A stretch of 64,000 nucleotides of DNA from positions 110,539 through 174,538 of the forward strand of contig NZ_CP051681.1 of assembly GCF_012849095.1 (NCBI RefSeq), written 5' to 3'. The translations under genes were made by a program, and so were the position numbers. The DNA comes from Cohnella herbarum. Lineage in GTDB: Bacteria > Bacillota > Bacilli > Paenibacillales > Paenibacillaceae. This document shows positions 4,652 to 63,406 of the stretch, piece after piece. The stretch's first letter is position 1. Every line of letters begins with the position of its first letter. The notes beneath the pieces were generated by a model. The model saw only the letters and a list, made by a program, of their open reading frames with translations, did no database searches and was not told where the DNA came from.

Positions 4652-4960
4652 TCATCCGGCAATCAGGGCAAGGATTTCCTTCGTAAACGTAATAATGACT
4701 CCGCCGGCGAGTGTCAAAAATCCGTTTGCGCGCTGAGAAGGGTCATGGGACTTTAGCGACAACCCAATTTGAACAATGCCAAAACCGAGAATAATCATGC
4801 CGATCGCACGGATTAAACCGAATATAAAAGTAGATAGGTTGTTGATTGTCGTCATTGGATCGCCTTCTGCATAAGCGGTAGAGGTGAATACGGTTCCCGC
4901 TAAGATCAGCACGATGTACAGGGCCAGCAGCCGTTTCGTTTTCATTTTCAAGTTCATCAT
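4652..4960 (-). CDS. Maff2/VirB2-like small membrane protein
   Basis: A 102-residue protein with a cleavable-type signal (hydrophobic stretch LLALYIVLILAGTVF, then STAYAEG) followed by two further hydrophobic helices. It matches the Maff2/TrbC family found next to VirD4 in Bacillota conjugative elements. It is probably the pilin-like or pore subunit. Its ATG at 4960 overlaps the TGA of the VirD4 gene (ATGA), indicating coupling. Confidence 0.8.
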   Translation of the reverse strand: MMNLKMKTKRLLALYIVLILAGTVFTSTAYAEGDPMTTINNLSTFIFGLIRAIGMIILGFGIVQIGLSLKSHDPSQRANGFLTLAGGVIITFTKEILALIAG

Positions 4961-44450: not shown

Positions 44451-44561
44451 GCTGAGAAAATTCAAGTTATGCGAAGTCAAAGCGACAAAAGCGAAGTGGG
44501 AAAAGTGGAGAACGCCTTGCGGGGAAAGGGATTCGGGCATTTCTGAAGGGGCAAAAAAAGG

Positions 44562-44581
44562 TTCGTATAATATAATGTTAT
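44562..44581 (-). repeat. Degenerate right end of an array repeat (S0)
   Basis: TCGTATAATATAATGTTAT keeps the GTTAT end and a damaged CGTGAATA-like stretch; the left half is missing. Its GTTATCGGATGTTCCCC pairs with the far end of the next cassette (near 45160), which marks this as the true end of the first cassette. Confidence 0.6.
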
Positions 44582-44603
44582 CGGATGTTCCCCTCTTCTC
44601 GAA

Positions 44604-45125
44604 TTACTTACACAGTTCTATTGTCATTTCAATTTCTGATTTTTCATTCTCATCTATTATTTCAACTGTTACTTCAGTTATTCTCTCAGAAAAAGATTCC
44701 ACTAGGCTTTTACAATTTTTATATGCTTCATCTAATTCGTTTAAGTCTTTCGTTCTTCCGAGAGTTAAATGAGGCTTGTAATTTGTTGTCTTCAAGAAAT
44801 CAGGGTAATAATCACTTAAAATTTCTGTATAAAGTTGTTTATGTAGTTCTACCAGACTCTCCGTTCCTTTCGTGATATTTAAGAACAAATAATTTCCTTT
44901 TTCTATCGTTATTCCTTGAAGCGTCAATTTGAATTGCTTTATATGTCTTATCGATTTCCTAATATGTCCCTCTAGTTCACATGTTGCAATTGAACTTTTG
45001 AAAGGAAATACTAGGGTAATATGTGGGTCAACATAACCATATAGGGGATCGTAGATTTTTCGAATCTTCTCGATCATTTCTTGATTAGTAAAATGAGTGA
45101 AGATCATAATGCATCTATGAATCAT
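44604..45125 (-). CDS. 2'-5' RNA ligase-like phosphoesterase
   Basis: 173 residues with the two HxT motifs of the 2H phosphoesterase family: HITLVFPF near residue 35 and HLTLGR near 119. Such enzymes hydrolyse or ligate 2',5' or cyclic phosphates of RNA or nucleotides. Start at 45125 after GAAGGGG. It is the last cassette gene of the array (reading on the minus strand); its stop is 23 bases before the S0 remnant. Confidence 0.82.
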   Translation of the reverse strand: MIHRCIMIFTHFTNQEMIEKIRKIYDPLYGYVDPHITLVFPFKSSIATCELEGHIRKSIRHIKQFKLTLQGITIEKGNYLFLNITKGTESLVELHKQLYTEILSDYYPDFLKTTNYKPHLTLGRTKDLNELDEAYKNCKSLVESFSERITEVTVEIIDENEKSEIEMTIELCK

Positions 45126-45177
45126 TAGATTACCCCTTCTATAAAATATGTTATTAAATGCTTTTGGGGAATTTCGG

Positions 45178-45360
45178 ATAAAGTTCGTGTATTCACGACG
45201 TCCAACTCCCTTAAGCCATAAGGACGGCTGCGACGCGGTTAGGGAGTTGGATGTGACCGGCAGATCCTACTTCCCCGCTGCTGAACATGCCTCCTCTAAT
45301 CAACTTCTAACTCCTGTCCGGACCGAGGCCGAATGGCCCGAAGCGTGAATATTGTGTTAT
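45178..45360 (-). repeat. attC-like repeat S1
   Basis: 183 bp. Inner stem CCAACTCCCTTAAG/TTAGGGAGTTGG, third-stem TGTCC/GGAC, hairpin GGCCGAATGGCC, ends ATAAAG and GTGTTAT. One substitution (A for C) in the left ATAAC box. Confidence 0.85.
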
Positions 45361-45388
45361 GCGAAGCTCTTAACTCCCTTGCAATGAC

Positions 45389-45939
45389 TTACAAATTCTT
45401 CATTATTAGTTGTCCTTTTATTCTTTCAACAATTTCTAATGTTGTAAGTGTTCCATCTATAACAAAATCTGAATCAGGTTTCACTGATCTTACCATCTCT
45501 AAATATGCTGTTCTTGCCTTTATTAAATATTGTTCTAAGTCATTCTGAATGTCATTTGGATTGTCTTTAAAATCTCTGATTAATCTTCTTGCCATTGCAA
45601 TATCAAGCGGTGTATCAACGTATATCGTGAAATCTAAATATTCCCGCATGCTTATATTGAGATAAGAAAAAGGATAATCAAGCAATACATATTTCAAGTC
45701 TTTATTCTCTAAAAGGGATATGACATCTCGAGTGAAAGGACTAAGATTCCATTCATTATAATTTGCTCCGCGATCTACCCAATCACATATATCATTTGGA
45801 CTTTCCTCAAAATCATAATCATCAAAGTAAAGTGCTGTTGCACTTACTAATTTCTCTTTCAACAAATTAGTTATGGTTGTTTTTCCTCCCCAGAAACGGA
45901 GGAAATTGAAATTATCGTAGGTTTCTTAGCAGAACTCAT
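45389..45939 (-). pseudogene. P-loop kinase-like cassette gene, frameshifted in the P-loop
   Basis: Reads MSSAKKPTIISISSVSG from ATG at 45939 (GGAGGA ribosome site), then GGGKTTITNLLKEKLVSA after a one-base loss in a G run (about 45887), then a uridine-kinase-like body with YFDDYDFEE, VLLDYPFSYL and DFTIYVDTPLDIAMARR. The downstream 158 residues are open. A single-base change would restore about 183 residues. Lies between S1 and S2; start of cassette GTTATGCGAAG pairs with CTTCGCATAAC-like end. Confidence 0.75.
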
Positions 45940-45996
45940 AATATACATCCTCCAAAAAGAGTTAAACAATATGTTGTGGCACTTCAAGAGTTTCGC

Positions 45997-46176
45997 ATAA
46001 CGTTCTTGTATTCACGACGTCCTACCACCTTAAAGGAGCGAAGCGACTGGCCGCGATGCGGTTAGGTGGTAGGATGTGTCCGGCTGCTTCCGCTTCCTTG
46101 CTACTGAAAATTGAATCCTCTTCTGACTCCTGCCGGACCGAGGGCCGAATGGCCCGATGCGTGAATATGGTGTTAT
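45997..46176 (-). repeat. attC-like repeat S2
   Basis: 180 bp. Inner stem CCTACCACCTTAA/TTAGGTGGTAGG, hairpin AGGGCCGAATGGCCC, outer ATAACG/GTTAT with TATTCACG/CGTGAATA. Confidence 0.9.
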
Positions 46177-46387
46177 CCGATGCCTCCGACTTCTTCGCTT
46201 TACTCACAAATCATTCTTAAATCTATTAAATCAAGCCCTTAAATCAAGCTCTTAAATCAAGCTCTTATCTGGAATTGTATCCCATTCTCATTCTGTTGGC
46301 ATTCGGTTATTTCTTTATCTGAATTAAATAAAAGAGCGCCGCAGCACCGTATGGTGCCCCCAAATCCACGCATGTGAAGCGAGTAAT

Positions 46388-46585
46388 TTAATATTTCTTT
46401 TTTGATGTTAGAACCGAATGTAAAAGTAATACTGCTCCAACTATCAAGGTGACAAACACTACAGTCATGATAAAGAGCACTTCCTCTTGATCATGAACTC
46501 TATTAATTATTCCGAAAAACCAAAAAAGTTCTATGATCAAAATTACAATCCAAATATAAACGAAACTAGAATGATTATTTTTCAA
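46388..46585 (-). CDS. Small two-helix membrane protein (cassette)
   Basis: 65 residues, two membrane helices (FVYIWIVILIIELFWFF and LFIMTVVFVTLIVGAVLLL) and a basic tail. TTG start at 46585 after AAAGGTGTG. Only gene in the S2-S3 cassette; 200 bases between its stop and S2 hold no gene. Function unknown. Confidence 0.55.
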   Translation of the reverse strand: MKNNHSSFVYIWIVILIIELFWFFGIINRVHDQEEVLFIMTVVFVTLIVGAVLLLHSVLTSKKKY

Positions 46586-46632
46586 ACTTAATCACACCTT
46601 TCAAAATTGGGGTTCGAACTCGGAGGTTTCGG

Positions 46633-46816
46633 ATAACGTTTTGTATTCACGACGTCCAACTCCCTTAAGCCCGAAGGGCGGCCGCGATGCGGTTAGGGAG
46701 TTGGATGTGTCCGGCTGATTCTGCTTCCCTGCCTACTGAAATTTCTTCTAGCGAATCTTCTCCAACTTCGGTCCGGACCGAGGGGTGAATGCCCCGATGT
46801 GTGAATATGGTGTTAG
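46633..46816 (-). repeat. attC-like repeat S3
   Basis: 184 bp. Inner stem CCAACTCCCTTAAG/TTAGGGAGTTGG. Ends ATAACG and GTTAG: the G at the end is matched by C at the far end of the next cassette. Confidence 0.9.
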
Positions 46817-46847
46817 ACGAAGTTCCTGGCTTCTTGATATACACTCA

Positions 46848-47015
46848 CTAGTGTTCTTTGTCCCTTTCCTTGCTATTGAGAATACTTAGTTCTTTAATGA
46901 TTAAATCCAATCGATTTATTATTCTTTCATCATTCTTTACCTGTATCTTTAGCGTGTAATGAATGGTCCCTAATCCTACGATCATTAGAAATAAAAACAA
47001 AATGTAAAGGAACAT
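46848..47015 (-). CDS. Small single-helix membrane protein (cassette)
   Basis: 55 residues from ATG at 47015 (GAAGGTGA upstream), MFLYILFLFLMIVGLGTIHY then a coiled, charged tail with RIINRLDLIIKELS. Resembles small phage-superinfection or holin-like proteins only in layout. A longer in-frame form to 47117 lacks a ribosome site. Confidence 0.5.
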   Translation of the reverse strand: MFLYILFLFLMIVGLGTIHYTLKIQVKNDERIINRLDLIIKELSILNSKERDKEH

Positions 47016-47241
47016 CAAGATCTCACCTTCTCTATTAAGGTTTAATCCACAATATTTATTATCAAGCGCTCCGTCGCTGGAATTCGCGACTTCTTCTAGG
47101 ATATTGTTAATATTCAAACCATAATCTTTACCCCTACGTTTTACAAATTCTGTATATAGAAAAAAAACTCCTTCTCAAACGGAGAAAGAGTCGAAAAATA
47201 ATGTGTTTGATTGAATTCTGTAATGCTCTCAGGAATTTCGT

Positions 47242-47431
47242 CTAACGTTCTTGTATTCACGACGTCCCACCACCTTAAGCCCACCAGGGGAGGCCGCGAT
47301 GCGGTTAGGTGGTGCGGATGTGTCCGGCTGTTTCTGCTTCTCCGAATACTGAAGTGCCTCTTCGAAATACATCAGACTCCTGCCGGACCGAGGGACGACG
47401 GAGTCGTCCCGATGCGTGAATATGGTGTTAT
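47242..47431 (-). repeat. attC-like repeat S4
   Basis: 190 bp. Inner stem CCCACCACCTTAAG/TTAGGTGGTGCGG, hairpin GGGACGACGGAGTCGTCCC, ends CTAACG and GTTAT. Confidence 0.9.
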
Positions 47432-47472
47432 AAGATGTTGGCGCCTTCTCGAGATACCTGCAGATTCCATTA

Positions 47473-47739
47473 TCATATGTATCTTGAAACAGTTTCAGGG
47501 TACTCACCATTTTTGAAACATTTCGCAAGGCAGTATCCGGCTTGCTTTATATAAAATCCATAGGGCCCATTATCACCTGAATAAGGTTTTAATTCTGAAA
47601 TCATCTCGGCTGTTTTATCTAGTCTTATTTTTCCCATGTTTTCTTTCAAGTCATTCTTATTAGGAGAGAAGTAATAGATTACCTCTTCATCATTTTCTAT
47701 TTCCTTAAATAAATAGGTGCTCCAACTCACATGTATCAA
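47473..47739 (-). CDS. Hypothetical cassette protein
   Basis: 88 residues, soluble (MIHVSWSTYLFKEIENDEEV). Starts 5 bases after the stop of the upstream gene of the same two-gene cassette. No known domain. Confidence 0.5.
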   Translation of the reverse strand: MIHVSWSTYLFKEIENDEEVIYYFSPNKNDLKENMGKIRLDKTAEMISELKPYSGDNGPYGFYIKQAGYCLAKCFKNGEYPETVSRYI

Positions 47740-47744
47740 TCCTT

Positions 47745-48032
47745 TTACTTAGAAATTATAGGCTTCCATGTCCCACCACTTCCATGATATGTTTCAACGC
47801 TGAGTTCAAACAATCTTAAACAGTTTGTACATTCAAACTTGTGAACTAGAACATCATCTGGGAGTGATTTTCCTTTTTGTATCTGTTCAAGATCACAATT
47901 TGAATCTACTAAGATAAGTACACTATCTTGAATAAACGTTTTTATTTGCGAAACAATATTAAAATATTCGTATGGATGATTAATTTCAATTGTTGTTGAG
48001 ATATCTTCGCATTTATTACACATATTGAGCAC
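47745..48032 (-). CDS. Hypothetical cassette protein with two CxxC pairs
   Basis: 95 residues. CNKC near residue 5 and CTNC near 73 could bind zinc. First gene of a two-gene cassette (with 47473-47739); such pairs are often toxin-immunity or toxin-antitoxin, but nothing here proves it. Confidence 0.5.
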   Translation of the reverse strand: MLNMCNKCEDISTTIEINHPYEYFNIVSQIKTFIQDSVLILVDSNCDLEQIQKGKSLPDDVLVHKFECTNCLRLFELSVETYHGSGGTWKPIISK

Positions 48033-48063
48033 TCCATGAATTTAATATTTGCGCCAGTTTCTT

Positions 48064-48230
48064 ATAACGTTCGTGTATTCACGACGCCTCACCACCTTAA
48101 AGGAGCAAAGCGACTGGCCGCGATGCGGTTAGGTGGTTCAGGTGTGTCCGGCTGAATTACCCTCGGCTCTTCTTCATCGGTCCAGACCAGGGGGCGGAAA
48201 AGCCGTCCCGAAGCGTGAATATGGTGTTAT
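48064..48230 (-). repeat. attC-like repeat S5
   Basis: 167 bp. Inner stem CCTCACCACCTTAA/TTAGGTGGTTCAGG, so the lower pairs changed together compared with S4. Hairpin GGGGCGGAAAAGCCGTCCC. Confidence 0.88.
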
Positions 48231-48264
48231 AGGATGTCAGCGCCTTCTCTGAAAAACTCACATT

Positions 48265-48461
48265 TCACTTCAAAGTTGTAATCCATTCGTTATAAAATTC
48301 CTCGATAGATTCATTCAATATCTGTTCAAATTCTTCAGGTTTTCTGATAATTTCGTTTAATATTTTCACCCCATATTTGTCATTAATGAAATTTACTATT
48401 AATCCACTATAAAAATATGCTGTTCCTCCAAAATCGTCGAAATATGTTGGACTCTTTAATT
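48265..48461 (-). pseudogene. C-terminal fragment of a cassette gene cut by the IS
   Basis: Open frame KLKSPTYFDDFGGTAYFYSG then NFINDKYGVKILNEII, EEFYNEWITTLK and a stop at 48265. The pattern resembles the C-terminus of gluzincin-type peptidase-like proteins (YGxxxLxEIIxxPEEFE). The N-terminus is gone: the IS3 element abuts it directly. It is not related to the kinase fragment on the other side of the IS. Confidence 0.55.
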
Positions 48462-48498
48462 TGGACCTCTGTCAAGATAGTAGACACAGATTTTCTTC

Positions 48499-49390
48499 CT
48501 ATACAGCTTGACCAGGGTACATACGTTCGTAATCAGAAGGCGTGTGGTACCCTATCGTAGAATGGATACGTTGATTGTTGTAAAAAAACTTCGATGTATT
48601 CAAAGATACTCTTTTTCGCTTCTTCGCGTGTTTGGTATTTATTGAGGTAAATTAGTTCCTTCTTCAATACGCTGTGAAACGACTCGATGCAAGCGTTGTC
48701 GTAACAGTTTCCCTTGCGACTCATGCTACCAGTCATCTCATAAATCTTGAGTTGCTTCTGGTAATCATGGGATGCGTACTGGCTTCCGCGATCCGAGTGA
48801 TGCAGCAATCCTGCGCCTGGCTGTTGACGGCCATGGGCTTGCCTTAGAGCCTGTAGCACAAGCTCTTACGTCATCCGTTCACTCATGTGCCAACCGACAA
48901 TCTTACGCGAGTACAAGTCCATTACGCTCGCCAAATAAAGCCAACCCTCATCGGTGGAGACATACGTGATATCAGTCACCCACTTCGCATTCGGTTTACT
49001 TGCAGCAAACTCCCTGTTCATTACGTTTTCTTGAACCGGTAGGGAATGCTTGGAGTTGGTTGTTGCCTTGTATTTCTTTACGGTCTTGGAACGGATTCCA
49101 TTCTCCTTCATGATACGGGTGAAGGTACGACGAGAGATGTTGACACCTTGTTGATGCAATCGTTCGGTAATTTTAGGGCTTCCGTATAGCTGCCTATTCT
49201 GGTCGTACACTTCCTTGACTTGGTCCGTCCATTCCTTGTGCTGACGCTCACGTTCACTCTCAGGGCGTCCTAACCATTTGTAATAGCCGCTACGAGATAC
49301 TTCCATTATGCGGCACATCTTCTCCAGTCGGTACTCGGAGCGGTGTTCGTGGATGAACGTATATTTTACCGACGGTCTTTCGCGAAGAAG
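48499..49390 (-). pseudogene. IS3-family transposase orfB, frameshifted
   Basis: DDE transposase: WVTDITYVSTDEGWLYLASV (first D), HHSDRGSQYASHDYQ (second D) and GNCYDNACIESFHSVLKKEL (E). Broken after HMSERMT (about 48862) and again in a T run near 48590, where VFYNNQRIHSTIGYH would continue in another frame. Not functional. Confidence 0.85.
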
Positions 49391-49648
49391 TGCATCGCCT
49401 TTTTTAGGATTTCATTCTCCTCTTGGAGATCACGAATATATTTTTGCATCTCTTTTATTCTCTGATCTTCTGGGACTAGCGCTTGTATAGCAACGATTTC
49501 TGGCTCACCGCCATACCTTTTCTCCCAGCCATACAAAGTATTTGCATTAATCTTAAGTTCCCGACCGATCTCTGCTACCGACTTCCCACTCCTTTATATA
49601 TTTAACTGTTTGCTTTTTGTACGCTTCATCATGCTTGATCTGTTTCAT
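49366..49648 (-). pseudogene. IS3-family orfA, frameshifted
   Basis: HTH protein MKQIKHDEAYKKQTVKYIKE then shifted (about 49585) to VAEIGRELKINANTLYGW, and a coiled region ending HFFAKDRR. Normally orfA regulates and fuses with orfB by programmed frameshift. Confidence 0.75.
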
Positions 49649-49716
49649 AGACACAGTGTCCTCCGCTCAGTTATTGAATCTAGTATAATCTGTGTCTACT
49701 ATTCACTCTAACTCCA

Positions 49717-49905
49717 TTCTGCTTCTTCTAGAATAGTAAAAGAATTAAACTGCTAGTCGTAAATTCTCAATGGATGGTTGTCTTCTAGTTCGTGATAAAA
49801 TCTATTAGGGATCTTTGACTCATTCAATCTTTCACTTATAAAGCTTCCGGTCGTTGACTTGCCCGACCCAGGTATGCCATCAATTATTATTAATTTTGTC
49901 TTCAC
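49717..49905 (-). pseudogene. N-terminal fragment of P-loop NTPase cassette gene (copy 1)
   Basis: GTG start at 49905 (GGGAG upstream): MKTKLIIIDGIPGSGKSTT has an intact P-loop, then NRFYHELEDNHPLRIYD and a TAG at 49753 where copy 2 has AAG (lysine). After the stop the frame continues QFNSFTILEEAEW up to the IS. The same gene occurs at 58776-59410, so this one was truncated by the IS. Confidence 0.78.
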
Positions 49906-49950
49906 AGAAACTACTCCCTGTATGATCTATTGGCTTTGCGTTGATTTCCT

Positions 49951-50111
49951 ATAACGTTTCCGTGTTCACGACTTCCCACCACCTTAAGGTCACGAAGTGA
50001 CCGGTCGCGATGGGGTTAGATGGTGCGGATGTGTCCAGCTGATTATGCTCCCATGAAAATGCCTCGGGCGGACCGAGGGCCGAGTGGCCCTAAGCGTGAA
50101 TATGGTGTTAT
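49951..50111 (-). repeat. attC-like repeat S6
   Basis: 161 bp, nearly identical for its first half to S18, so S6 plus the kinase fragment is a duplicated segment. Hairpin AGGGCCGAGTGGCCC. Confidence 0.88.
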
Positions 50112-50145
50112 CTGAAGGAGCTCCTGTTAAACCCACAATTCGCCT

Positions 50146-50439
50146 TTATTCATTAAGACAATTTCTTGCTCCATGTATTATGGTCTTTATGATTATCCGA
50201 TCATTATGTATTTGATAAATCAATCAATACCGATGTATAAAAATTTCCCGCACCTCAGGATCGTCCATTTCTGGAACTACACGTCCTCGATGCGGGAAAT
50301 CATTTAGTGTCTGTGCTTTATCCATTACATCATCATAAAATGCTAAGGCATAATACATGGAATCCTGAGAAATATATTCTACAATGTTTTGTAAATCTTT
50401 ATACGCCGTTACGGTCCATATTATTGTTTGTTCAGCCAT
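50146..50439 (-). pseudogene. ParE/RelE-type toxin with an internal stop
   Basis: MAEQTIIWTVTAYKDLQNIV ... EVREIFIHRY then TGA at 50224-50226, then LIYQIHNDRIIIKTIIHGAR to TAA at 50146. A CGA (Arg) to TGA change explains it; the full frame would be about 97 residues, normal for ParE. Its ATG overlaps the antitoxin end by 19 bases. Confidence 0.78.
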
Positions 50440-50606
50440 TTATCCATCCTCGCTTTAACCTCGTCATGGGATAGTAAATTGCCTTCATCAATGTCCTTCT
50501 GTCCTTTTTCAATTTTGGATCTGACATACAATGTATACTGGATGTCTTCAATTGAACAGTTCTCAGGAAGTTTATCAATCATTTGTTTTACATCATCTTT
50601 TAACAT
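50421..50606 (-). CDS. Antitoxin of the ParE-like pair (cassette)
   Basis: 61 residues (MLKDDVKQMIDKLPENCSIE, then SHDEVKARMDKWLNKQ), the usual acidic C-terminal helix of RelB/ParD-like antitoxins. Start after GAGGTGATG. Intact while the toxin is broken. Confidence 0.75.
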   Translation of the reverse strand: MLKDDVKQMIDKLPENCSIEDIQYTLYVRSKIEKGQKDIDEGNLLSHDEVKARMDKWLNKQ

Positions 50607-50681
50607 GTTAGCATCACCTCAGCTACATTATATCATAAGGGTTTTGGTTTGATGAATTTCAAATAAGCTTCGCTCTTTCAG

Positions 50682-50837
50682 ATAACGTTCTTGTATTCAC
50701 GACGTCCCACCACCCTAAAGGAGCGAAGCGACTGGCCGCGACGCGGTTGGGTGGTGCGGGTGTGTCCGTTGAATAATCTTCCTCGAAATGCCTCTGTGGA
50801 CCGAGGGCCGAATGGCCGATGCGTGAATACGGTGTTA
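50682..50837 (-). repeat. attC-like repeat S7
   Basis: 156 bp. Inner stem CCCACCACCCTAAAG/TTGGGTGGTGCGG: the C-G at the bottom changed to keep pairing. Hairpin AGGGCCGAATGGCC. Confidence 0.88.
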
Positions 50838-50940
50838 TCAGAAGTATCTGCCATCTTGAATAAGCTATTAAAATCTCTCGATTAGTACACTATTTCTGTT
50901 ATATCTATTTCATCTTCTATTGACTGCATGCATGGCTCAC
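50838..50940. other. Cassette remnant without gene
   Basis: About 100 bases between S7 and S8 with no open frame. It starts GTTATCAGAAGTATCTG like a cassette, but its partner end at S8 is damaged, so this is a collapsed cassette. Confidence 0.55.
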
Positions 50941-50945
50941 ATAGT

Positions 50946-51085
50946 TGTTCTTGTATTCACGACGTCCAACTCCCTTAAGCCCGAAGGGCGGCCGCGACGC
51001 GGTTAGGGACATTACATCTCTGAATCCACATCTAACTCCTGCCGGACCGAGGGCCGAATGGCCCAAAGCGTGAATATGGTGTTAT
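50946..51085 (-). repeat. attC-like repeat S8, damaged
   Basis: Left box mutated (CATAGTTGTTCTTG instead of ATAACGTTCTTG) and the middle deleted: GGTTAGGGAC jumps to CATTACATC, losing the third-stem left arm. Right end intact. Confidence 0.78.
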
Positions 51086-51166
51086 AAGATGTTGGCGTCT
51101 TCTCTGAAATACTCCACAACTATAAAAAATGTCCCTAACTATAATGTCAGGGACTTACTCTAGTTG

Positions 51167-51436
51167 TCATTTATATATGTCTCCTCTTGGACCTAGGCGT
51201 ACTACATATATGATTAATTCATTGTTTTTGATTTCATAGATAACTCGGTAACTCCCCACACGAAGTCTATAATAATTGCCTTCCTTACCTTTCATCTTCT
51301 TAGTATGTGGGTTTTCGTATGGCTTCTCACTCAATTGTTGAAGTGCATTAAAAATTCTTCTAATAGTATCTTTCTCTAGATTCTTTAGTGACTTCTCTGC
51401 TTCACCCGAAAAGATTACCCTATATTTCGAGCTCAC
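51167..51436 (-). CDS. RelE/YoeB-like toxin (cassette)
   Basis: 89 residues from GTG at 51436 (GGAGGAC 8 bases upstream). The mRNA-interferase fold is plain: YRVIFSGEAEKSLKNLEK, then PYENPHTKKMKGKEGNYYRL, RVGSYRVIYEIKNNELIIYV. A basic core and C-terminal RGDIYK suit a ribosome-dependent RNase. It overlaps the antitoxin stop. Intact; its stop is 82 bases from S8. Confidence 0.85.
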   Translation of the reverse strand: MSSKYRVIFSGEAEKSLKNLEKDTIRRIFNALQQLSEKPYENPHTKKMKGKEGNYYRLRVGSYRVIYEIKNNELIIYVVRLGPRGDIYK

Positions 51437-51644
51437 GTTGTAAGTCCTCCAATGATTTAGTCCTGCCGCTTTGAAGATCAAGTTGTCCTTGTTCAATAGC
51501 CTGGATATCTTCAGGTGTTAAATAGTCATCTTCTTCATCTATTTGTTTTTCCAGTAACCAGGACAAAAAGCTCTTCGCTACAACTTTATTCTTATCATTC
51601 AAATGATCTAAAATTTGCTCAAGCTCATCATTTGGGACACTCAT
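51420..51644 (-). CDS. Antitoxin of the RelE-like pair (cassette)
   Basis: 74 residues, MSVPNDELEQILDHLNDKNK, with an acidic middle (EKQIDEEDDYLTPEDIQAIE) typical of Phd/RelB-like partners that bind the toxin. Start after AAAGGGG. Translationally coupled to the toxin. Confidence 0.82.
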   Translation of the reverse strand: MSVPNDELEQILDHLNDKNKVVAKSFLSWLLEKQIDEEDDYLTPEDIQAIEQGQLDLQSGRTKSLEDLQRELEI

Positions 51645-51766
51645 GACTTGTACCCCTTTGAATTATCATTCTTATTATACGCCAATATATAAGGATGCTC
51701 CAGATTTTAGTGTTTTTATACTTCATCTCGAGTTACTCGTAGAAATCGATCTTGCACCAATTTCTT

Positions 51767-51943
51767 ATAACGTTTCCGTGTTCACGACGTCCATTCACCT
51801 TAAGCTGCAAGAGTCCTGCGACTAGCACGATCTCGGCCGGCCGCGATGCGGTTGGGTGAATGGATGTGTCCCGGCGATTGCTTCTTCGACTTATCTCCCG
51901 GGATCAAGGCGGCTTGTCCGCCGATGCGTGAACATATTGTTAT
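51767..51943 (-). repeat. attC-like repeat S9
   Basis: 177 bp. Inner stem CCATTCACCTTAAG/TTGGGTGAATGG, third stem TCCCGG/CCGGGA. Right hairpin GGCGGCTTGTCCGCC. Both stems differ from S1-S7 yet still pair. Confidence 0.9.
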
Positions 51944-51970
51944 CGGATGTCCCAGCCTTCATTGATAAAC

Positions 51971-53062
51971 TCAATATTTATTTTCCTTTACATTTAGAAT
52001 ATTTCTAATAAATGGGGTTGCTTCTGAAAATTTCATTTCACGGTATTCAAACCTATCATATATTCCTCTGCCAATTAAGGTTTCATAACGTCCTTTAATT
52101 TCCCCTGTGTTATTCGGATCAAATACCATAAATCGTTTTATTCTCGACTTGCCAGCTGTTCCTAATGCAAATAAATATCTAAAAAAGGCATCGGATTCTG
52201 GAAGAGAGTAACCAATTACAAATATATTTCTAGCAGTACTTAAGTCCTCTGCCGCTTGGGTCCAGACATTTGTAAGAGTGCCTTGATAATCTGTTTTGTT
52301 CCAAGTTGGAGGGACAATTACAGGAATATTTTCTACAGATTCGTTACAATGACTTAAGTCGTGTAAATGTTCACTTGGAGTAAGTAATACATTCTTTACT
52401 TCACCTAATAACCGACTCCAATTGTACTTTCTAAAATAATCATTAAAGTTATAAGGAAGTACTTCTTTACAATGTTTGCATCTACCCCAATTAATTGATC
52501 CATGCAATTTTAAATAATGGAGTCGACTTCTGTCATTAGAGTGAGACAAGCAATAATCTGGACTCTGACTCGTGTAATGTAAAGCAAAATCCAAAGCAAC
52601 ATCATAATTAAATGAAATTATTGAAGAAGTACTGTTATTTGAATTTGAAGCTTGTAGATCGTTTATTAGATTAGCAAATTCTAGATATGATTTTGTCGGT
52701 CTTATATGCTTATCCGATGCTGGTAACTTTATTGTTTTTTCAAGGGTTTTAACAATCAATTTGATAAGTGATTCTCTAGCAACTTCAATTTCATTGCCCG
52801 TCCTCGTGCCAAGTCTATTGATAATTCGAGCCATTTCAATAGCTCCGAAAAGCGTTTCAATATTGTCCAATTTTAAATAAGATTTTGAATGAATAATCTG
52901 CAAATCAGATATGATAGAGAAAACTTCTTGAAATGCTTCTCTTTTTTCATTTAGTACATTTGTCATTAACAATTCCTCGGATATATCAAGGAAATTATTC
53001 ATTAATGGTGCTCCAGATTCAAAAGATGCACCAGCACCTAGAATAAATACATTCTCTACCAT
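51971..53062 (-). CDS. SIR2-like NADase/deacetylase-fold protein (cassette)
   Basis: 363 residues. FILGAGASFESGAPLM (residues 6-21) is the NAD-binding loop; LKLHGSINWGRCKHC near 190 holds the catalytic histidine and a CxxC; VIGYSLPESD near 300 closes the fold. SIR2-like proteins of this shape are often phage-defence effectors that deplete NAD (family knowledge), but some are deacylases. The start follows AGGAGGAAG. The largest intact cassette gene, with its own ribosome site. Confidence 0.85.
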   Translation of the reverse strand: MVENVFILGAGASFESGAPLMNNFLDISEELLMTNVLNEKREAFQEVFSIISDLQIIHSKSYLKLDNIETLFGAIEMARIINRLGTRTGNEIEVARESLIKLIVKTLEKTIKLPASDKHIRPTKSYLEFANLINDLQASNSNNSTSSIISFNYDVALDFALHYTSQSPDYCLSHSNDRSRLHYLKLHGSINWGRCKHCKEVLPYNFNDYFRKYNWSRLLGEVKNVLLTPSEHLHDLSHCNESVENIPVIVPPTWNKTDYQGTLTNVWTQAAEDLSTARNIFVIGYSLPESDAFFRYLFALGTAGKSRIKRFMVFDPNNTGEIKGRYETLIGRGIYDRFEYREMKFSEATPFIRNILNVKENKY

Positions 53063-53094
53063 GAATTGCTTCCTCCTAATTGCTTGGATTTCCG

Positions 53095-53235
53095 ATAACG
53101 TTCATGTATTCGCGACGTCCATTCCCCTTAGATAGCTCCTATCTTAGGGAATGGATGTATCTGCCTGAATTACCTCATCGAAATCACTCCTGGCAGATCA
53201 AGGGCCGCATGGCCGCAGCGTGAATATGGTGTTAT
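53095..53235 (-). repeat. attC-like repeat S10 (short form)
   Basis: 141 bp. Short-form inner stem CCATTCCCCTTAG/CTTAGGGAATGG with an extra AGATAG/CTATCT hairpin, and third stem ATCTGCC/GGCAGAT in place of GTCCGGC/GCCGGAC. Hairpin GGGCCGCATGGCC. Confidence 0.88.
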
Positions 53236-53644
53236 CTGCTGTTGCCCTCATCCTTGAGATTGCCCGACAATATCCCTGCTCTTCTGATAATTTCTATTCT
53301 TTCTTCTCTGCCTTCAATATTCTTTATCATATCTAAAGCGGTTTCAAAATTCATTATTACATATCCAGTCTTTTCATATCCTTTTGGTATTTCACAAATC
53401 CTTTTTACAAGTGTTAAGAAATAAATAGTGTATCCGTTAGATTCCTTCCAAAACCAGCTAGCGAAGGGCACTCTAATTTCAGTTAATTCAATTCCTGCTT
53501 CTTCCATCACTTCTCTATCTAATCCATCTTCTATTGTTTCGTTCTGTTCTAATCTCCCACCAATTGTTGTGAGTACTTTCTCTTCTCGATCCCAGACCAT
53601 CATCAAGTTACCATTATCAAGGAGTGGAATGCAGTGAACTCCGC
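53232..53644 (-). pseudogene. NUDIX hydrolase, 5' end lost with half a repeat
   Basis: NUDIX box GGRLEQNETIEDGLDREV then MEEAGIEL at about residues 15-40 of the visible 124 (GX5EX7REVxEEXGI form). The frame continues upstream without start as IGGVHCIPLLDNGNLMMVWD and enters truncated repeat S11, so a deletion removed the true start and the left half of the repeat. A start at 53606 (ATG ATG) would lack the first beta strand. Confidence 0.72.
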
Positions 53645-53651
53645 CTATTGT

Positions 53652-53754
53652 GTCCGGCTGCTTCGCTTCCTGTATCTGAGTTCACGCCTATCGAGTCCAC
53701 TTCAACTTCTGCCGGACCGAGGGCGAATGCCCCGATGCGTGAATATGGTGTTAT
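53652..53754 (-). repeat. attC-like repeat S11, left half missing
   Basis: Starts directly at TGTCCGGCTGC, keeps GCCGGACC, the GGGCGAATGCCC hairpin and GTGTTAT. The left ATAAC end and the first inner stem are absent. Confidence 0.82.
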
Positions 53755-53770
53755 CCGAAGTTCCTGACCT

Positions 53771-54534
53771 CTATGAGTTACCCCGAAATGAAACCTTTCT
53801 CTTATATGCATCTTCTAATATTTCTTTAATTCCTTCAGCTTTCTTCGTTATGAATGTATTCCAAAAAATCTGTCCTTTACGCGCTAATTCTACCGGCGAA
53901 TAACCATCTGGATCAAAACTCCCCCAACATCCATCTGTTGTAAGCTTATCCCAGCCCATAAAATCAGCATATTTTCTGTTTTCTGTAGGAATTTGAGAAC
54001 CCATTGAAAGTAACTTCACTTTATCTGGACATAACCACATTGCTGTACATACAGACAATAACCCGCCGTGCATTTCATTTAGCCCTTCCAGTCCTGAGGC
54101 TTGAATAGCTGTCTGCCAAGCATCTCCATTATGATTTGGATGAATCAATATAATTTCTGGATATTTATAGTTAATATGTTTGATAAAAGATCCTTCCCAA
54201 TAGGAACCACCATGTCCTGAACATAAAACAAACTTTTTAAATCCTTGTCGTATTAGTCCAGTCACAATCTCTTCTAATAATAATGTTATTTGGTTCGGGC
54301 TAATTGTTACTGTCCCTTTAAAATTCGCATGTTCCTCAGAGGTATTAAACGGTAAAGTGGGTAATACATAAGCATTTAATGCTTGCCATATTCTTCGGCA
54401 TAGAGTTCAGCTATTACAGTATCCAAGTGCATGGGCAAATATGGACCAAATTGTTCGGTTGCACCTACAGAAATAATAGCGGTATCAATACCGCTTTCTG
54501 ATAATTCTTTGGTTGTATTCGTATAGTTCAACAT
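53771..54534 (-). pseudogene. Creatininase-family gene, frameshifted
   Basis: MLNYTNTTKELSESGIDTAI then SVGATEQFGPYLPMHLDT (metal-binding loop of the family) from ATG at 54534, broken at EEYGKH near 54385, then in another frame ALNAYVLPTLPFNTSEEH and FVLCSGHGGSYWEGSF. The last 164 residues are open. About 254 residues if restored. Family members are metal-dependent amidohydrolases (creatininase, FAPy deformylase). Confidence 0.78.
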
Positions 54535-54577
54535 AAAAGAATCTCATCCTTGTCTTTTATGGTCTCAGGAATTTCGG

Positions 54578-54759
54578 ATAACGTTCTTGTATTCACGATG
54601 TCCAACTACCTTAAGCCAGAAGGGCGGCCGGGATGCGGTTAGGGAGTTGGATGTGTCCGGCTGTTCCCACTTCCCTGTTCTGAGTTCACTCCGATCGAAT
54701 CCTCTTCAACTTCTGTCGGACCGAGGGCCGAATGGCCCGATGCGTGAATATGGTGTTAG
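54578..54759 (-). repeat. attC-like repeat S12
   Basis: 182 bp. Inner stem CCAACTACCTTAAG/TTAGGGAGTTGG with one mismatch. Hairpin AGGGCCGAATGGCCC. Ends ATAACG and GTTAG. Confidence 0.88.
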
Positions 54760-55468
54760 CTGATGCCACCCCTTCTTCGAGCTACAAACGTGATCCAATT
54801 GCTTTTGAATTCTATTTCCTTATCATATTTCTTTTCTTTCATAGATTGAGGTAGATAGCTCTTATAAAGGATCTCCCAACCATGATATAGATTCTCTAGT
54901 AGTAATATTGTTCTGTCTGTTTCTAAATTAAGTTCTATTAACCGTCAGCAGTTTCTTGAGTTTCAATATCTATTTCCTTTACTTCAGTACTCATTAATAT
55001 TGCATTTATTCCGTTGTCTTTTGTTCCTGTAATCATCCGATTTACTACCATCTTTAATGCTTCCACTGAAGATACATGTTCTAAACAAGAACAAGCGACT
55101 ATGTAATCAAATTCTCTAGGGGTTATTAAGTACTCTTCTGCATCAGCAACTTCCGCAATGATCTGATCTTGAACATTATACTTCCTAGAATTTTCAATCA
55201 ATAAATCTATTGCAGTTGGGATCAAATCAACACAAGTAATCATTCCATTAAGATTCTTTACTATCTGAGCTATTGGAATGCTATTTCTACCTACTCCACA
55301 ACCAAGATCAAGTATTCGTATATTTGGGTTATTCAGTAAGTCTAGCATTTTCAATACGATCTTGACTGGCCTAGCTAACCAAGTTCCAGGTTCAAAGAGC
55401 GTACTCTCTAGGTAAAAAGATTCGTGGTATTTGATCTCTTCTGTGCGAGCTTGAATAAATTTATTCAT
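54756..55468 (-). pseudogene. SAM-dependent methyltransferase, frameshifted; stop inside repeat
   Basis: MNKFIQARTEEIKYHESFYL start, SAM motif RILDLGCGVGRNSIPIAQ near 55, CVDLIPTAIDLLIEN near 80, YIVACSCLEHV near 125. The frame breaks at ETADG (about 54942); another frame continues RLIELNLETDRTILLLEN to FVARRRGGIS, stopping at TAA inside the GTTAG box of S12. So the original stop codon is part of the repeat. About 236 residues if restored. Confidence 0.8.
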
Positions 55469-55514
55469 AGATCACCTTATCTTATATAGTTTATTCGCAC
55501 TTGGGTGGTTTCAG

Positions 55515-55704
55515 CTAACGTTTGTGTGTTCACGACGTCACACCGACTTAAGGCGACGAAGTCGCCGGCCGCGATGCGGTTAGTCGGTGCGGATGTGTCC
55601 GGCTGATTCTGCTTTACTGCTGCTGAAATTACAACATCGATTCCACTTCTTACTTCAGTCCGGACCGAGGCAGCTTGACTGCCGATGCGTGAATATAATG
55701 TTAT
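55515..55704 (-). repeat. attC-like repeat S13
   Basis: 190 bp. Inner stem CACACCGACTTAAGG/TTAGTCGGTGCGG, unlike all others but still paired. Hairpin GGCAGCTTGACTGCC. Confidence 0.9.
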
Positions 55705-56015
55705 CCGATGCCTCTGTCTTCCTGAATTTGCTTACATATGAGTTCTTAATATAATTCTTTGAACTCTTCATGACTCCCTAAATCATCATGATTATCTTGA
55801 TCTCTTCGAGTTTTTGATCTTCGTGAGTTTTGAGTTTTCATTTAAATAAAAAATAGCCCTTAAATGGAATTGTAATCCATATCAGAGCGTTTATCATCAC
55901 TTATTTACATATACACGGTTTACGATTCTGTCTCTGTCCGATTTGTAGAAATCGTGTCACGAGTAATACACGCTTCAATCAATTAGCTAATTTACAAACC
56001 TATGATTCCATCTAT

Positions 56016-56315
56016 TCATTTTTTACTTTTCTTCGATGCCATCCAGAAGACAAGTATCACAATTGGGATAAAGATGAACCATGGAATGTTGATCGTACTT
56101 TCTGTGATAAAGGCGAGACCCAACAATCCTATGGAACCAAGAATAAGCCAGAGACACCCTCTTCCCAACGTTTCCATTCGCGTAGTTCCTCCCCTCCAAA
56201 ATTGGATTGTAGATTTCTTAATCAAGTATTGTAAGTTTATTTCATTAATGAGTATCACATACCAAGAATACAAGTGCTTGATGAGCTGATTGTAACCGAT
56301 CTTTTCCTCAAGCAT
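56016..56315 (-). CDS. Small membrane protein (cassette)
   Basis: 99 residues; the last 54 (METLGRGCLWLILGSIGLLG to MASKKSKK) form two membrane helices and a basic end, and ATG there (about 56177) is an alternative start. The first 45 residues are of doubtful reality. Function unknown. Stop codon 300 bases from S13; that gap holds a 31-residue open frame (about 55750-55840) without a ribosome site. Confidence 0.5.
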   Translation of the reverse strand: MLEEKIGYNQLIKHLYSWYVILINEINLQYLIKKSTIQFWRGGTTRMETLGRGCLWLILGSIGLLGLAFITESTINIPWFIFIPIVILVFWMASKKSKK

Positions 56316-56347
56316 CTACAATCAGAATAGTCACTCGGAGGTTTCGG

Positions 56348-56539
56348 ATAACGTTTCCGTATTCACGACGTCCCACTGGCTTAAGGTTCCGCAGGAACCG
56401 GCTGCGCTTGCGCAGTTAGACAGTGCGGATGTGTCCGGCTGATTCCGCTTCTCTGCTACTGCCAATTGCATCTTAGAATCCACTTCTAACTTCTACCGGA
56501 CCGAGAGCCGAATGGCTCGATGCGTGAATATGGTGTTAG
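56348..56539 (-). repeat. attC-like repeat S14
   Basis: 192 bp. Inner stem CCCACTGGCTTAAGG/TTAGACAGTGCGG (one G-A). Hairpin AGAGCCGAATGGCTC, in which two pairs changed together compared with AGGGCC/GGCCC. Confidence 0.9.
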
Positions 56540-56572
56540 ACGAAGGATCCTCCTTCTATGAATCTACATTCA

Positions 56573-56874
56573 TCTCCATATATTCATTAGTTTTTGATAG
56601 ATAGTGTATTGATTTTCTTTATTCGTCTTTATTCTTAAATGTATTTCTTCAATGCTTTCCTTTTCTTTTTTACTTAAAAAAGACATATTGGTTAACTTCT
56701 AATACTAATTTATTGCTATACCACCTTTCAATCAGTGGTAATATTTCTAATCTTTCTTTTTCATTTTCAATGCTCTCTTTAAATCATTAAATGTTATTTC
56801 ATATCCCGAGTTTTGACTGTACTTATGAACAGTCACTTCGGTTTCTATGCTACATAAGGGACAGCTTATAAACA
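56573..56874 (-). pseudogene. Decayed small gene(s) of the S14-S15 cassette
   Basis: MFISCPLCSIETEVTVHKYS (CxxC) reads from about 56874, then a one-base shift near 56790 leads to FKESIENEKERLEILPLIER and a stop near 56686. A second short frame MSFLSKKEKESIEEIHLRI follows to about 56573. Both probably degenerate. Function unknown. Confidence 0.4.
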
Positions 56875-56950
56875 TACCGATCCTGTAGTGTTCAGCCTCA
56901 AATAATGATTTTCATTTTATGCACCTGGATTTGATTAAATTTTTCGCTCA

Positions 56951-57046
56951 TCTTAGGGGAATGGATGTATCTGCCTGAATTCACTTCCTCGAAAACTCTC
57001 CTGGCAGATCAAGGCCGAATGGCCCGCAGCGCGAATATTGTGTTAT
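56951..57046 (-). repeat. attC-like repeat S15, left half missing (short form)
   Basis: Begins at TCTTAGGGGAATGG, keeps TATCTGCC/GGCAGATC and the GGCCGAATGGCC hairpin; ends GTGTTAT. The left outer end is lost. Confidence 0.8.
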
Positions 57047-57076
57047 ACGCTGTTACTGCCTACTTGAAATACTTAA

Positions 57077-57688
57077 CTATTTATTTGAAATAAGACGATT
57101 TTGTACTTTTCTAGATAATTTCCAATAGTCTCTTAAATTATTATCTTCTGACTTAAATAATGAACCTATTTCAGTAAATTTGTTAGGATTTGTCATCAGT
57201 TCAGATTGATTTAGTAGGCTATATTGATACCTTAAAAAAGTAAAGAAATCACTTGTAATTGCTCGTCCGTCTTCATAAATAATATTTGATTCAATCCATT
57301 TATCATCAACTTCTTCTGGATTATATTCTTCTTGTAAACTCAATAATGCCTGATTATACTTTTCCCATTCCTCAAGTAATTGCCTATTATGTTTTGAGTA
57401 GTTACATTGAACAATCATTGAATTTGATGTATAAAAAAGAATCCAAACAAAATCTGCTCTTACTAATTTATTTGATAACAGATCATTCTTATATCTTGAA
57501 AATAATGAATACAAATTTTCGAATTTGTTAGAATCAATAATAGAGCTTGGTCGTAGATCTAAACATATTTTTTTTACAAATATCAGCAATTTCAAAAAAA
57601 ATAATTGCAGATAAGAATCACTTCTTTCATATTGATCTTTAAGCTCTGCAGTAATTGCGCATAACGTTCGTGTATTCACGACGTCCAT
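57077..57688 (-). CDS. Hypothetical cassette protein, start codon lies in the repeat
   Basis: About 203 residues; SYLQLFFLKLLIFVKKIC near 26-43 is hydrophobic, the rest is soluble and charged. The only ATG at the front (57688) is inside repeat S16 and its first residues (MDVVNTRTL) are repeat sequence. Within the cassette itself there is no ATG in frame until about residue 112. Either translation begins in the neighbouring repeat, or the true 5' end is lost. No known domain. Confidence 0.45.
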   Translation of the reverse strand: MDVVNTRTLCAITAELKDQYERSDSYLQLFFLKLLIFVKKICLDLRPSSIIDSNKFENLYSLFSRYKNDLLSNKLVRADFVWILFYTSNSMIVQCNYSKHNRQLLEEWEKYNQALLSLQEEYNPEEVDDKWIESNIIYEDGRAITSDFFTFLRYQYSLLNQSELMTNPNKFTEIGSLFKSEDNNLRDYWKLSRKVQNRLISNK

Positions 57689-57804
57689 TTCCCTTAGATA
57701 GCTCTTATCTTAGGGGAATGGATGTATCTGACTGACTCGGCTTCCTCGAAATCTCTCCGGGCAGATCAAGGGCCAAATGGCCCGCAGCGCGAATATGCTG
57801 TTAG
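57661..57804 (-). repeat. attC-like repeat S16 (short form)
   Basis: 144 bp. Stem CCATTTCCCTTAG/CTTAGGGGAATGG, extra GATAG/CTTATC hairpin. Third-stem arms TATCTG/CAGATC. Ends ATAACG and GTTAG. Confidence 0.88.
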
Positions 57805-57886
57805 ATGATGTGGCTGACTTCACTGACTACACATTAATGAAAAAATTAAAACCGCAATTTGCGGTTTTATCAAATAAACTTTGTAG

Positions 57887-58467
57887 TTATATTAGTCCCA
57901 TTGATTCAAGTAATTCGTATTTATTTTTTGGTATACTGCGAGTCAAATCACCATTGATTACATCAATAGCTTCCCAGGACGAATAAATTACAAAATCATC
58001 TGAAGTAGGTATTATTCCACTCCAGTCATAGTTATTTAATTCATATGCTATTTCGAATCGAAGATTTTGTGATACTTCCCACCACTCTTCATATTCTTCT
58101 TGTCCACCAAATATTTCAATAAGTGTATTCTGCTTTTCTGGGAAATTTGGATCTTCCGACTCTAGACCGATTTGATAATTAACTGGCATTTCTCCAAAAT
58201 TCCATAAAAGCCACTTGTCATCAGTACCTTCTTCTTCAATCATCTGCTTTCGGTAGGATTCTACCCTAATTGTATCAATCCAATGACGGGTTCGTCATCA
58301 GAACCATATAGTGCGATATAACAAACTTTATCTCCCTCATCAAGTTTAATACGCTTTACGGCATTCGGAATACTAATCAAAAGATCTTGTTTAAGTTGAA
58401 CAAGAAACTGTCCCTTAATCATAAAAATATAACCCTCCATATTGCAAGATAGAAATAATTTCGACAT
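57887..58467 (-). pseudogene. Hypothetical cassette gene split by a frameshift
   Basis: First part MEGYIFMIKGQFLVQLKQDL to EPVIGLIQLG (58261-58467), then a one-base shift and VESYRKQMIEEEGTDDKWL on to the end at 57887 (YIVYSSWEAIDV-like section). Joined length about 180 residues. DUF4303-like layout is possible (W..FG..P and late SDDFVIYSSWE) but not secure. Confidence 0.6.
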
Positions 58468-58567
58468 AAAATTCCATTTACCTTCTAAATAATGTAATTG
58501 GAATTTGATGAAAGTATTATTGATACGCTCATTATTAATGTATTTTAAGAACTTTCAGCCATTTCAT

Positions 58568-58751
58568 CTAACGTTCTTGTATTCACGACGTCCAACTCCC
58601 TTAAGCCCCAACGGGGCGGCCGCGATGCGGTTAGGGAGTTGGATGTGTCCGGCTGCTTCTGCTTCCCTGTGTTTGAGTTCACTTCCATCGAATCCTCTCC
58701 AACTTCTGCCGGACCGAGGGGCGAATGCCCGATGCGTGAATATGGTGTTAT
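58568..58751 (-). repeat. attC-like repeat S17
   Basis: 184 bp. Inner stem CCAACTCCCTTAAG/TTAGGGAGTTGG, hairpin GGGGCGAATGCCC. Ends CTAACG and GTTAT. Confidence 0.9.
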
Positions 58752-58775
58752 AGGATGTCAGCGCCTTCTTCGAGT

Positions 58776-59410
58776 TCACCCCAGAAAATCAATTATTCTG
58801 TCTTTATATTCATCCCATTTGTAATTCTCATTTCTTATTATTAGCTTTGAAATATCCCATTCCTGAACGATTTTGAATACAAAATCCTGATTTATAGTCC
58901 AGAACTTCCCGGCTTCTACAAAATCGTTATCTGTATGAATTCCACATACACCTTGAGTGAATTCAGGTCCACGAATCTCACAAATCCATCTCCAATTTTG
59001 TTCTACATTCACTTGGTAAAAATAGATTAGAACGGGATCAAGCCGACTTAAAATAGATTGTATTTTCTTTGTCAGATCCAACAATCTTTGTTCTTCCATT
59101 TGCATGTTAAAAGCAAATCCAATTGTGTCTTGAAATACATAGCTCTCCATAATTGTGATTTCTTCTCGATCTAATTTATCATTAATAAATCACTAAAGAG
59201 TTGCTCGACCTTTGCAGCGAACCATTCTGCTTTTCTAGAATAGTAAAAGAATAAACTGCTTGTCGTAAATTCTCAATGGATGGTTGTCTTCTAGTTCGTG
59301 ATAAAATCTATTAGGGATCTTTGACTCATTCAATCTTTCACTTATAAAGCTTCCGGTCGTTGACTTGCCCGACCAGGTATGCCATCAATTATTATTAATT
59401 TTGTCTTCAC
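58776..59410 (-). pseudogene. P-loop NTPase cassette gene (copy 2), three frameshifts
   Basis: GTG at 59410: MKTKLIIIDGIPG then a lost base in the P-loop (about 59375), further losses near 59265 and 59240 compared with copy 1 and another near 59180, then ESYVFQDTIGFAFNMQMEEQ to the stop at 58776 (VVIDFLG end). Restored length about 211 residues. Likely a nucleotide kinase-like ATPase. Copy 1 (49717-49905) has the opposite pattern of damage. Confidence 0.78.
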
Positions 59411-59453
59411 AGAAACTACTCCCTGTATGATTATTGCTTTGCGTTGATTTCCT

Positions 59454-59603
59454 ATAACGTTTCCGTGTTCACGACTTCCCACCACCTTAAGGTCACGAAG
59501 TGACTGGTCGCGATGCGGCTAGGTGGTGCGGATATGTCCGACTGGCTCTGCTTCTTTGCTGCTGAAATGCCTCGCCCCGCTTCAGACCGAGGGCGGCTCC
59601 CGA
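59454..59603 (-). repeat. attC-like repeat S18, right end missing
   Basis: Left ATAACG end, first inner stem CCCACCACCTTAAGG/CTAGGTGGTGCGG and third stem are present; after AGACCGAGGGCGGCTCCCGA the sequence changes to unrelated DNA (about 59604). The array stops here. Confidence 0.8.
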
Positions 59604-59969
59604 TTTTTTAAACGCAGGCACAGGAATATTATACAGATTATAGGTTTATTTTTGGCTAAATTTGTCGGATAATTACAAACGGTTGCTCATAGAAATTTCC
59701 AATAAGTCCATTTTAGAATTTATCATTCTGCAATCTTTTCTTCCACATATCGCCAAAATAAGAGCTTCTCATGTATAATATTGTCGTCTGGTAACTCTAG
59801 CAAATCCCTCAACCGATGAGGATCGTTTCCGGTGATTTTGTGGATAAACTCTTAAAAGGTTTGGCGTACGTCACTGCCTAGCAGCCATAATTATGGGCAT
59901 TATTCAAGCGAATCAAGCTGACGAGGTAATGCGTGAATTGGTGGGTAGATATTACGAATCGGGATTCAG
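59604..59969. other. Junction region right of the array
   Basis: About 365 bases. A minus-strand remnant (59723-59851) and a short plus-strand frame starting MGIIQANQADEVMREL (about 59898) are the only coding hints. No integrase, attI-like sequence or promoter could be identified. Confidence 0.5.
59723..59851 (-). pseudogene. C-terminal remnant of an unknown gene
   Basis: Frame EFIHKITGNDPHRLRDLLEL then NIIHEKLLFWRYVEEKIAE and a stop at 59723; a stop cuts it off upstream. Family unknown; I cannot show that it is an integrase. Confidence 0.35.
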
Positions 59970-63325: not shown

Positions 63326-63406
63326 TCTATTTCATCTGAATACCCGTACTTCGAATCAACTGAACTTCTATTTCATCTGAATACCCGTACTTCGAATCAA
63401 CTGAAC
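63325..63406. repeat. Tandem 41-bp duplication
   Basis: Two identical 41-base units (63325-63365 and 63366-63406), each containing TCTGAATACCCGTACTTCG. The second unit holds the stop codon region of the TerD-like gene. Confidence 0.8.

Follow-up and report, generated by a model that had tools for sequence, protein, structure and literature searches.

A cassette array of probable integron type in Cohnella herbarum and a tyrosine recombinase lacking the IntI insertion beside related arrays

We analyzed a 64-kb stretch of Cohnella herbarum DNA (hereafter the window), which occupies the final 64 kb of contig C2 (174,538 bp) in an 8.5-Mb genome of two contigs (G000). The region of the window in which short genes alternate with attC-like sites is, taken as a whole, very probably the cassette array of an integron-type system. 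From its sequences, this system appears to function like an integron, but the tyrosine recombinase that adjoins such arrays in related genomes lacks the domain specific to IntI. Two of the observations behind this interpretation are that the two ends of a cassette are complementary to each other and that single cassettes are shared between species.

A covariance model of the site (R1) yielded 18 matches in the window by cmsearch, at 45179-59631 and all on the minus strand; the model was built from 14 full sites, whose own matches are expected by construction. The full sites are about 139-190 nt long and contain outer ATAAC/GTTAT elements, inner TATTCACG/CGTGAATA elements, and G|TT. The initial annotation had described about 18 related repeats between small segments, these same shared elements, and genes mostly on the minus strand. 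All three descriptions hold, and the array reading frames with family matches are without exception on the minus strand.

Comparison of the sites supports a hairpin structure, with a common predicted fold consisting of an 8-bp closing stem and inner hairpins. Thirteen of the 28 pairs are changed on both sides, with 33 such cells compared to a shuffled mean of 10.6 (0/500 shuffles), and 94.6% of cells are paired compared to 31.5-48.4% when the partners are slid. A second hairpin measure, the number of further pair types, was no higher than in shuffles (205/500). Both strands fold better than shuffles to a similar extent (z -3.8 and -3.7), and folding does not tell the strands apart.

Within a cassette, the bases following the 5′ GTTA are the reverse complement of the bases preceding the 3′ TAAC over ~18 nt, while the flank across the shared site has no such complementarity to the cassette end. 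For the 15 cassettes tested in the window (excluding segments that start at three sites whose R′ could not be used), 193 of 330 positions match, compared to 164 in the best of 100,000 permutations (0 as good). The mean match out of 22 is 12.9 for own ends, 7.8 for the ends of other cassettes, and 7.5 within the same site. We found the same pattern in 309 cassettes on 49 locus-strands, a set in which A2 and A3 are the best 150 of 277 and the best 150 of 161 matches and from which sites were excluded if TAAC or GTTA was missing close to their termini. Scored over 10 variable positions, own ends match at 8.45 on average and both same-site and other pairings at 3.61, and a score of at least 8/10 is reached by 247/309 own ends, 12/297 same-site pairings, and 81/2442 other pairings. 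No within-locus permutation reached the own-end sum (0/5000).

Because a cassette's own ends are complementary and its neighbor's are not, the units were exchanged at a point inside GTTA. This agrees with G|TT as the exchange point, and the complementarity would be explained if circular cassettes are exchanged there. Each cassette unit begins with the TT of a GTTA and ends with the G of the following one. Own ends agree at 0.81-0.92 for bases 5-7 and 12-17, compared to 0.02 for base 11 and 0.10 for base 19. If the cassette were circular, its arms would form 9 base pairs, be interrupted by a conserved mismatch, and then form ~7 more. The R box of a textbook attC site is 7 bases long, and the pairing predicted here extends past it. 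Outer boxes specific to each cassette (247/309 by own ends) together with GTT exchange are features of attC-type sites in integrons, and both were found.

Sequence comparison indicates that single cassettes are common to different species, with borders at G|TT. A cassette (682) shared by genomes G138 and G110 is 98.3% identical over 711 nt, nearly border to border, and further near border-to-border alignments were obtained for G115/G096 (92% over 743), G083/G115 (93.5% over 727), and G010/G022 (90.6% over 807). Across families, G041 and G089 share a cassette at 85% over 684, with the alignment stopping short of the site end. In other shared cassettes, homology continues into the upstream site (e.g., G089/G022). 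G022 also has the window cassette at 45182-44580, at 91-94%, and one array contains three identical 422-nt cassettes. According to the initial annotation, the notion of integron-type cassettes with attC-like sites would have been undone by repeats that never border mobile cassettes or by a fixed gene order. The sharing of single cassettes between species speaks against both, and together with the own-end complementarity it supports that notion.

The arrays of relatives adjoin one tyrosine recombinase gene of ~380 codons, broken in several genomes, and lie downstream of it in the same orientation. Sites are present in 44/60 relatives (counted from the best ≤45 sites in each), with at least 10 sites in 19/23 relatives with the integrase compared to 8/37 without it (p 4e-6, 60 relatives). 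The recombinase family was found in 59/197 relatives (E≤1e-50) and in 29/299 sampled Bacillota (E≤1e-60), some of the latter matches covering the catalytic part only. R1 sites lie downstream in 33/40 integrase loci, and 274/277 of these matches are on the integrase strand. Of the seven loci without sites, five have <0.8 kb of downstream DNA, and L105 and L136 have 9 and 12 kb, respectively. In L105 (G045:C112), the only stop codons within the matched part of the integrase frame are four in-frame TAGs; this is either a decayed gene or one with recoded TAG.

By searching for its own 3′ end, we located the first cassette border in 34/39 arrays, 71-942 nt past the recombinase gene. It is mostly preceded by a conserved sequence with the consensus GAAGTTCGTAAATAAGAM|GTTA, which does not resemble attC and recurs in similar form upstream; at 1 of the 34 first borders, an attC half takes its place. 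This consensus is a putative attI, at which cassettes would join the array. Among these 34 borders, GTTA is followed by T at 19, by G at 11, and by A at 4. The box consensus of IntI-type integrons is GTTRRRY, from which these first borders depart. No LexA-like boxes were found within 400 bp upstream of the integrase (0/26). Paenibacillus sp. NFR01 (L137) has the same arrangement, with an own-end result of 14/16, and in a quick tree omitting proteins of <270 residues its integrase groups among integrases of same-family genomes, pointing to Paenibacillaceae as the probable family of the window's genome. By this model, the recombinase would excise cassettes as circles and insert them at attI, and the site would be active in a folded, single-stranded form.

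The catalytic K, H, R, H, and Y residues are invariant in the recombinases, and the first R has one substitution (alignment A5). The ~41-residue IntI insertion is absent, with 23 residues in the recombinase of L052 compared to 65 in IntI4, and the motif spacing is 59-61 in the 23 measurable of 26 recombinases compared to 100-101 in four IntIs. The integron integrase model TIGR02249 scores these recombinases at 200-204 bits, under its cut-off of 265. By the domain that defines IntI, the recombinase does not belong to that type. The initial annotation suggested looking in relatives for an IntI-type recombinase next to similar repeats; a tyrosine recombinase does adjoin the arrays there, but without the IntI-specific domain.

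Foldseek ranked IntI4 (PDB 2a3v) first for the recombinase, while ranking by Z placed archaeal XerA first at 22.2 (other XerA, 20.9; PDB 4a8e and 5hxy) and IntI4 at 19.1. The closest proteins by sequence are of the archaeal XerA type (134.6 bits). A 41-row tree, which sampled four IntIs and 12 of the 26 Paenibacillales integrases, unites these 12 (95/91) and places them separately from the IntIs (100/100). Holding the recombinases and IntIs together with L138 was not rejected (AU p 0.23), making sisterhood of the recombinase with IntI compatible with the tree.

The recombinase often carries an N-terminal HARP-like module. A profile search against PDB sequences matched SMARCAL1 HARP at E 0.57 only, and SMARCAL1 HARP is not among the matches listed for the full-length model, which cover mainly residues 98-356. 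The module alone had no Foldseek match at E≤0.001, and no HARP match was found in the window's own genome. Perhaps the module reads the folded site in part, standing in for the missing IntI-specific domain. By eye, the recombinase of Arundinibacter roseus (L143) seems to have three copies of the module.

Linked own-end cassettes were found in 11/20 loci of other Bacillota, with shuffles near zero. Using a motif-based test that requires at least 6/7 bases and in which some of the positions listed fall outside arrays, own ends were complementary in 9/12 cases in Flavobacterium enshiense (L146; 6/144 other pairings), 6/10 in Rufibacter (L145; 1/100), and 4/9 in Peregrinibacteria (L194; 1/81). The test was near nil despite repeats in L143 (1/15; others, 0/225) and L162 (0/4; 0/16), and gave 1/11 with a borrowed motif on the Rufibacter tibetensis plasmid L253. 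Among 80 named related loci, which are the best 80 of at least 588 stretches such that absence there means little, a linked-pair scan found linked cassettes in 10, and the R1 model gave 2 matches up to E 1. As R1 sites were also found in only 15/299 Bacillota genomes (E≤1e-5), the model does not carry far. A generic attC scan was insensitive. Searching with site DNA returned no match in plasmids and one in phages. In FN538973.1 (L252), a record deposited under the name Paenibacillus phage phiBP (P. polymyxa CCM 7400), two sites flank ORF3.2, and the ends of the cassette around ORF3.2 are complementary by eye.

In the window's own genome, we found no member of the recombinase family at E≤1e-50 or 1e-60 and no remnant of one near the array. 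Using the relatives' integrase, tblastn gave chance-level matches only in the window, and an own-genome Phage_integrase search had no match inside it, in agreement with the earlier observation that the window holds no integrase. A TIGR02249 search confined to this genome gave no match over the cut-off. With no copy of the recombinase found in its genome, the array resembles a cluster of attC sites lacking integron integrases (CALIN). The window's array may now be a relic or dependent on help in trans, because no recombinase was found in the genome and the upstream end looks cut off.

On its left side, the window's array ends at the insertion of a ~134-kb island (C2:~21354-155107; window 1-44568), which lies in one attC-like site and splits the array. 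Contig C1 carries the same array without the island, with the site empty. The island junctions carry two imperfect 13-nt repeats, ATAACACCATATT and ATAACATTATATT, and one end of the island encodes three tyrosine recombinases (L047:9574-12592), two on the plus strand and one on the minus strand. Based on its genes for a conjugation coupling protein (4957-6726), a DUF5704 protein (20717-24550), and ParB (36893-37987), the island may be an integrative conjugative element. The same three-recombinase module in another genome (G031:C9; L054:13384-16564) stops exactly at R′′ of the first site of an array, suggesting that islands of this kind insert preferentially into attC-like sites. The flanks on C2 are 99.4-99.99% identical to C1, and the last 636 bases of the window (63365-64000) are identical to C1 (L049:7014-7649), with a ~40-base overlap with the preceding alignment on C1, a minor discrepancy between the contigs. 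Given the near-identity of the flanks, C2 may represent a variant of this chromosome region, the island being carried by only some of the cells, or may have arisen as an artefact of assembly.

We weighed three other explanations. The arrays could be ordinary IntI integrons or CALINs in an unusual host, with a true IntI working from elsewhere and the single recombinase a bystander. Integron-like site borders and the sub-threshold TIGR02249 scores would fit this, as would the one complete integron reported in Firmicutes, that of Limnochorda pilosa. We nonetheless consider it improbable, as the window's genome has no TIGR02249 match over the cut-off and the single recombinase is tied to arrays and attI in many genomes without the IntI insertion. 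We think it very improbable that the units are transposon-like elements with their own terminal inverted repeats, the sites being merely joined ends: every unit does have inverted ends, but these are cassette-specific while the intervening site is conserved, and the only transposase in the cassettes belongs to one IS3-like insertion.

The recombinase trio directly adjoins sites in both G000 and G031 and was therefore considered as the array integrase. We rejected this candidate, whose chances appear equally slight, since the trio in G000 is part of the island occupying one site, C1 has that site empty, and the junction repeat is an imperfect 13 nt; in the set of loci retrieved around arrays, it is the single recombinase that adjoins other arrays. 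The island resembles GInt islands in two respects: three tyrosine recombinases lie at one end, and its direct repeats are short and imperfect. GInt islands are reported to range from 2.5 to at least 70 kb (PMC5385486) and carry ginABCD as a single operon. At ~134 kb, with two plus-strand recombinases and one on the minus strand and an attC-like target, our island differs from these; no search for ginD was made.

Returning to a cassette system served by the single recombinase, we compared it to known systems. IntI integrons (TIGR02249; IntI4, 2a3v) likewise have cassettes of one or a few genes, attC-like hairpin sites, GTT exchange, an attI-like start, and a related tyrosine recombinase. Here, however, the recombinase lacks the ~41-residue insertion and often has the HARP-like module, the integrase gene is oriented as the cassettes are, and the arms extend ~18 nt past the exchange point. 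As in a CALIN, the window's array consists of sites and cassettes with no integrase found, but its relatives carry a non-IntI recombinase. The archaeal XerA-type recombinases (4a8e and 5hxy) are nearest by sequence and Z; in contrast to them, the enzyme here carries a fused HARP-like module and is associated with cassette arrays.

We hypothesize that these arrays represent a second integron lineage without IntI, which uses a XerA/IntI-like recombinase, often with a HARP-like branched-DNA module, and its own attI and occurs in Bacillota, Bacteroidota, and Peregrinibacteria; on balance, the data favor this hypothesis. If true, cassette capture either originated independently here or this is the stock that gave rise to IntI by gain of the extra domain. 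IntegronFinder 2.0 (PMC9024848) reports integrons of Firmicutes as very rare, with one complete element and a few CALINs; Firmicutes are named among integron-bearing phyla in another article (PMC8618304), and the archaeal integron survey demanded the IntI-specific domain. Screens with that requirement would miss these recombinases as IntI. We found no description of such a system in open PMC text, a scope that excludes subscription papers and preprints. If the recombinase works as proposed, the IntI-specific domain would be dispensable for cassette capture, the origin of integrons could be tested by comparing both enzymes, and a cassette-capture tool for Gram-positive laboratory hosts might be developed.

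From upstream to downstream on the minus strand, the full attC-like sites of the window lie at 58569-58750 (R1 score, 175.8 bits), 57662-57803 (123.9), 56349-56538 (170.8), 55516-55703 (162.6), 54579-54758 (165.3), 53096-53234 (114.2), 51768-51942 (117.8), 50683-50837 (153.2), 49952-50110 (159.6), 48065-48229 (145.6), 47243-47430 (169.5), 46634-46815 (166.3), 45998-46175 (197.4), and 45179-45359 (161.9). The remaining four of the 18 are damaged or incomplete: 56936-57045 (52.0 bits) and 53574-53753 (55.9 bits) are without the R′ half, 50942-51084 (97.8 bits) has a degenerate R′ end, and 59455-59631 (96.2 bits) is the upstream-most site and the start of the array as it stands. The latter has R′ and a cassette border at 59458, and its outer half has either degenerated or been truncated near 59604. 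When the window is aligned to C1 at the empty site, a minus-strand half-site is also evident at 44569-44581; it is the R′′ of the next site, which the island severed, and forms one of the two imperfect 13-nt repeats.

The cassette genes with family matches, all on the minus strand, encode a member of the 2′-5′ RNA ligase superfamily (44604-45125; Pfam PF13563, E 4e-21), part of a uridine-kinase-like protein (45389-45865; PF00485, E 6e-8), a ParE-type toxin of a toxin-antitoxin pair (51167-51433; PF05016, E 4.8e-15), a SIR2-like, defence-type protein (51971-53062; best PADLOC SIR2 E 6.3e-8, with Pfam matches below cut-off), a NUDIX protein (53232-53606; PF00293, E 8.6e-7), a creatininase-like protein in an incomplete frame (53771-54265; PF02633, E 4e-8), and a methyltransferase (54938-55468; PF13649, E 5.8e-13). 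The IS3-like transposase (48533-49318; Pfam rve and HTH_21) lies inside the cassette between 49955 and 48229. A search of the window at Rfam gathering thresholds found nothing at the sites and a single motif elsewhere, a pemK RNA at 38890-38968 on the minus strand (47.3 bits).

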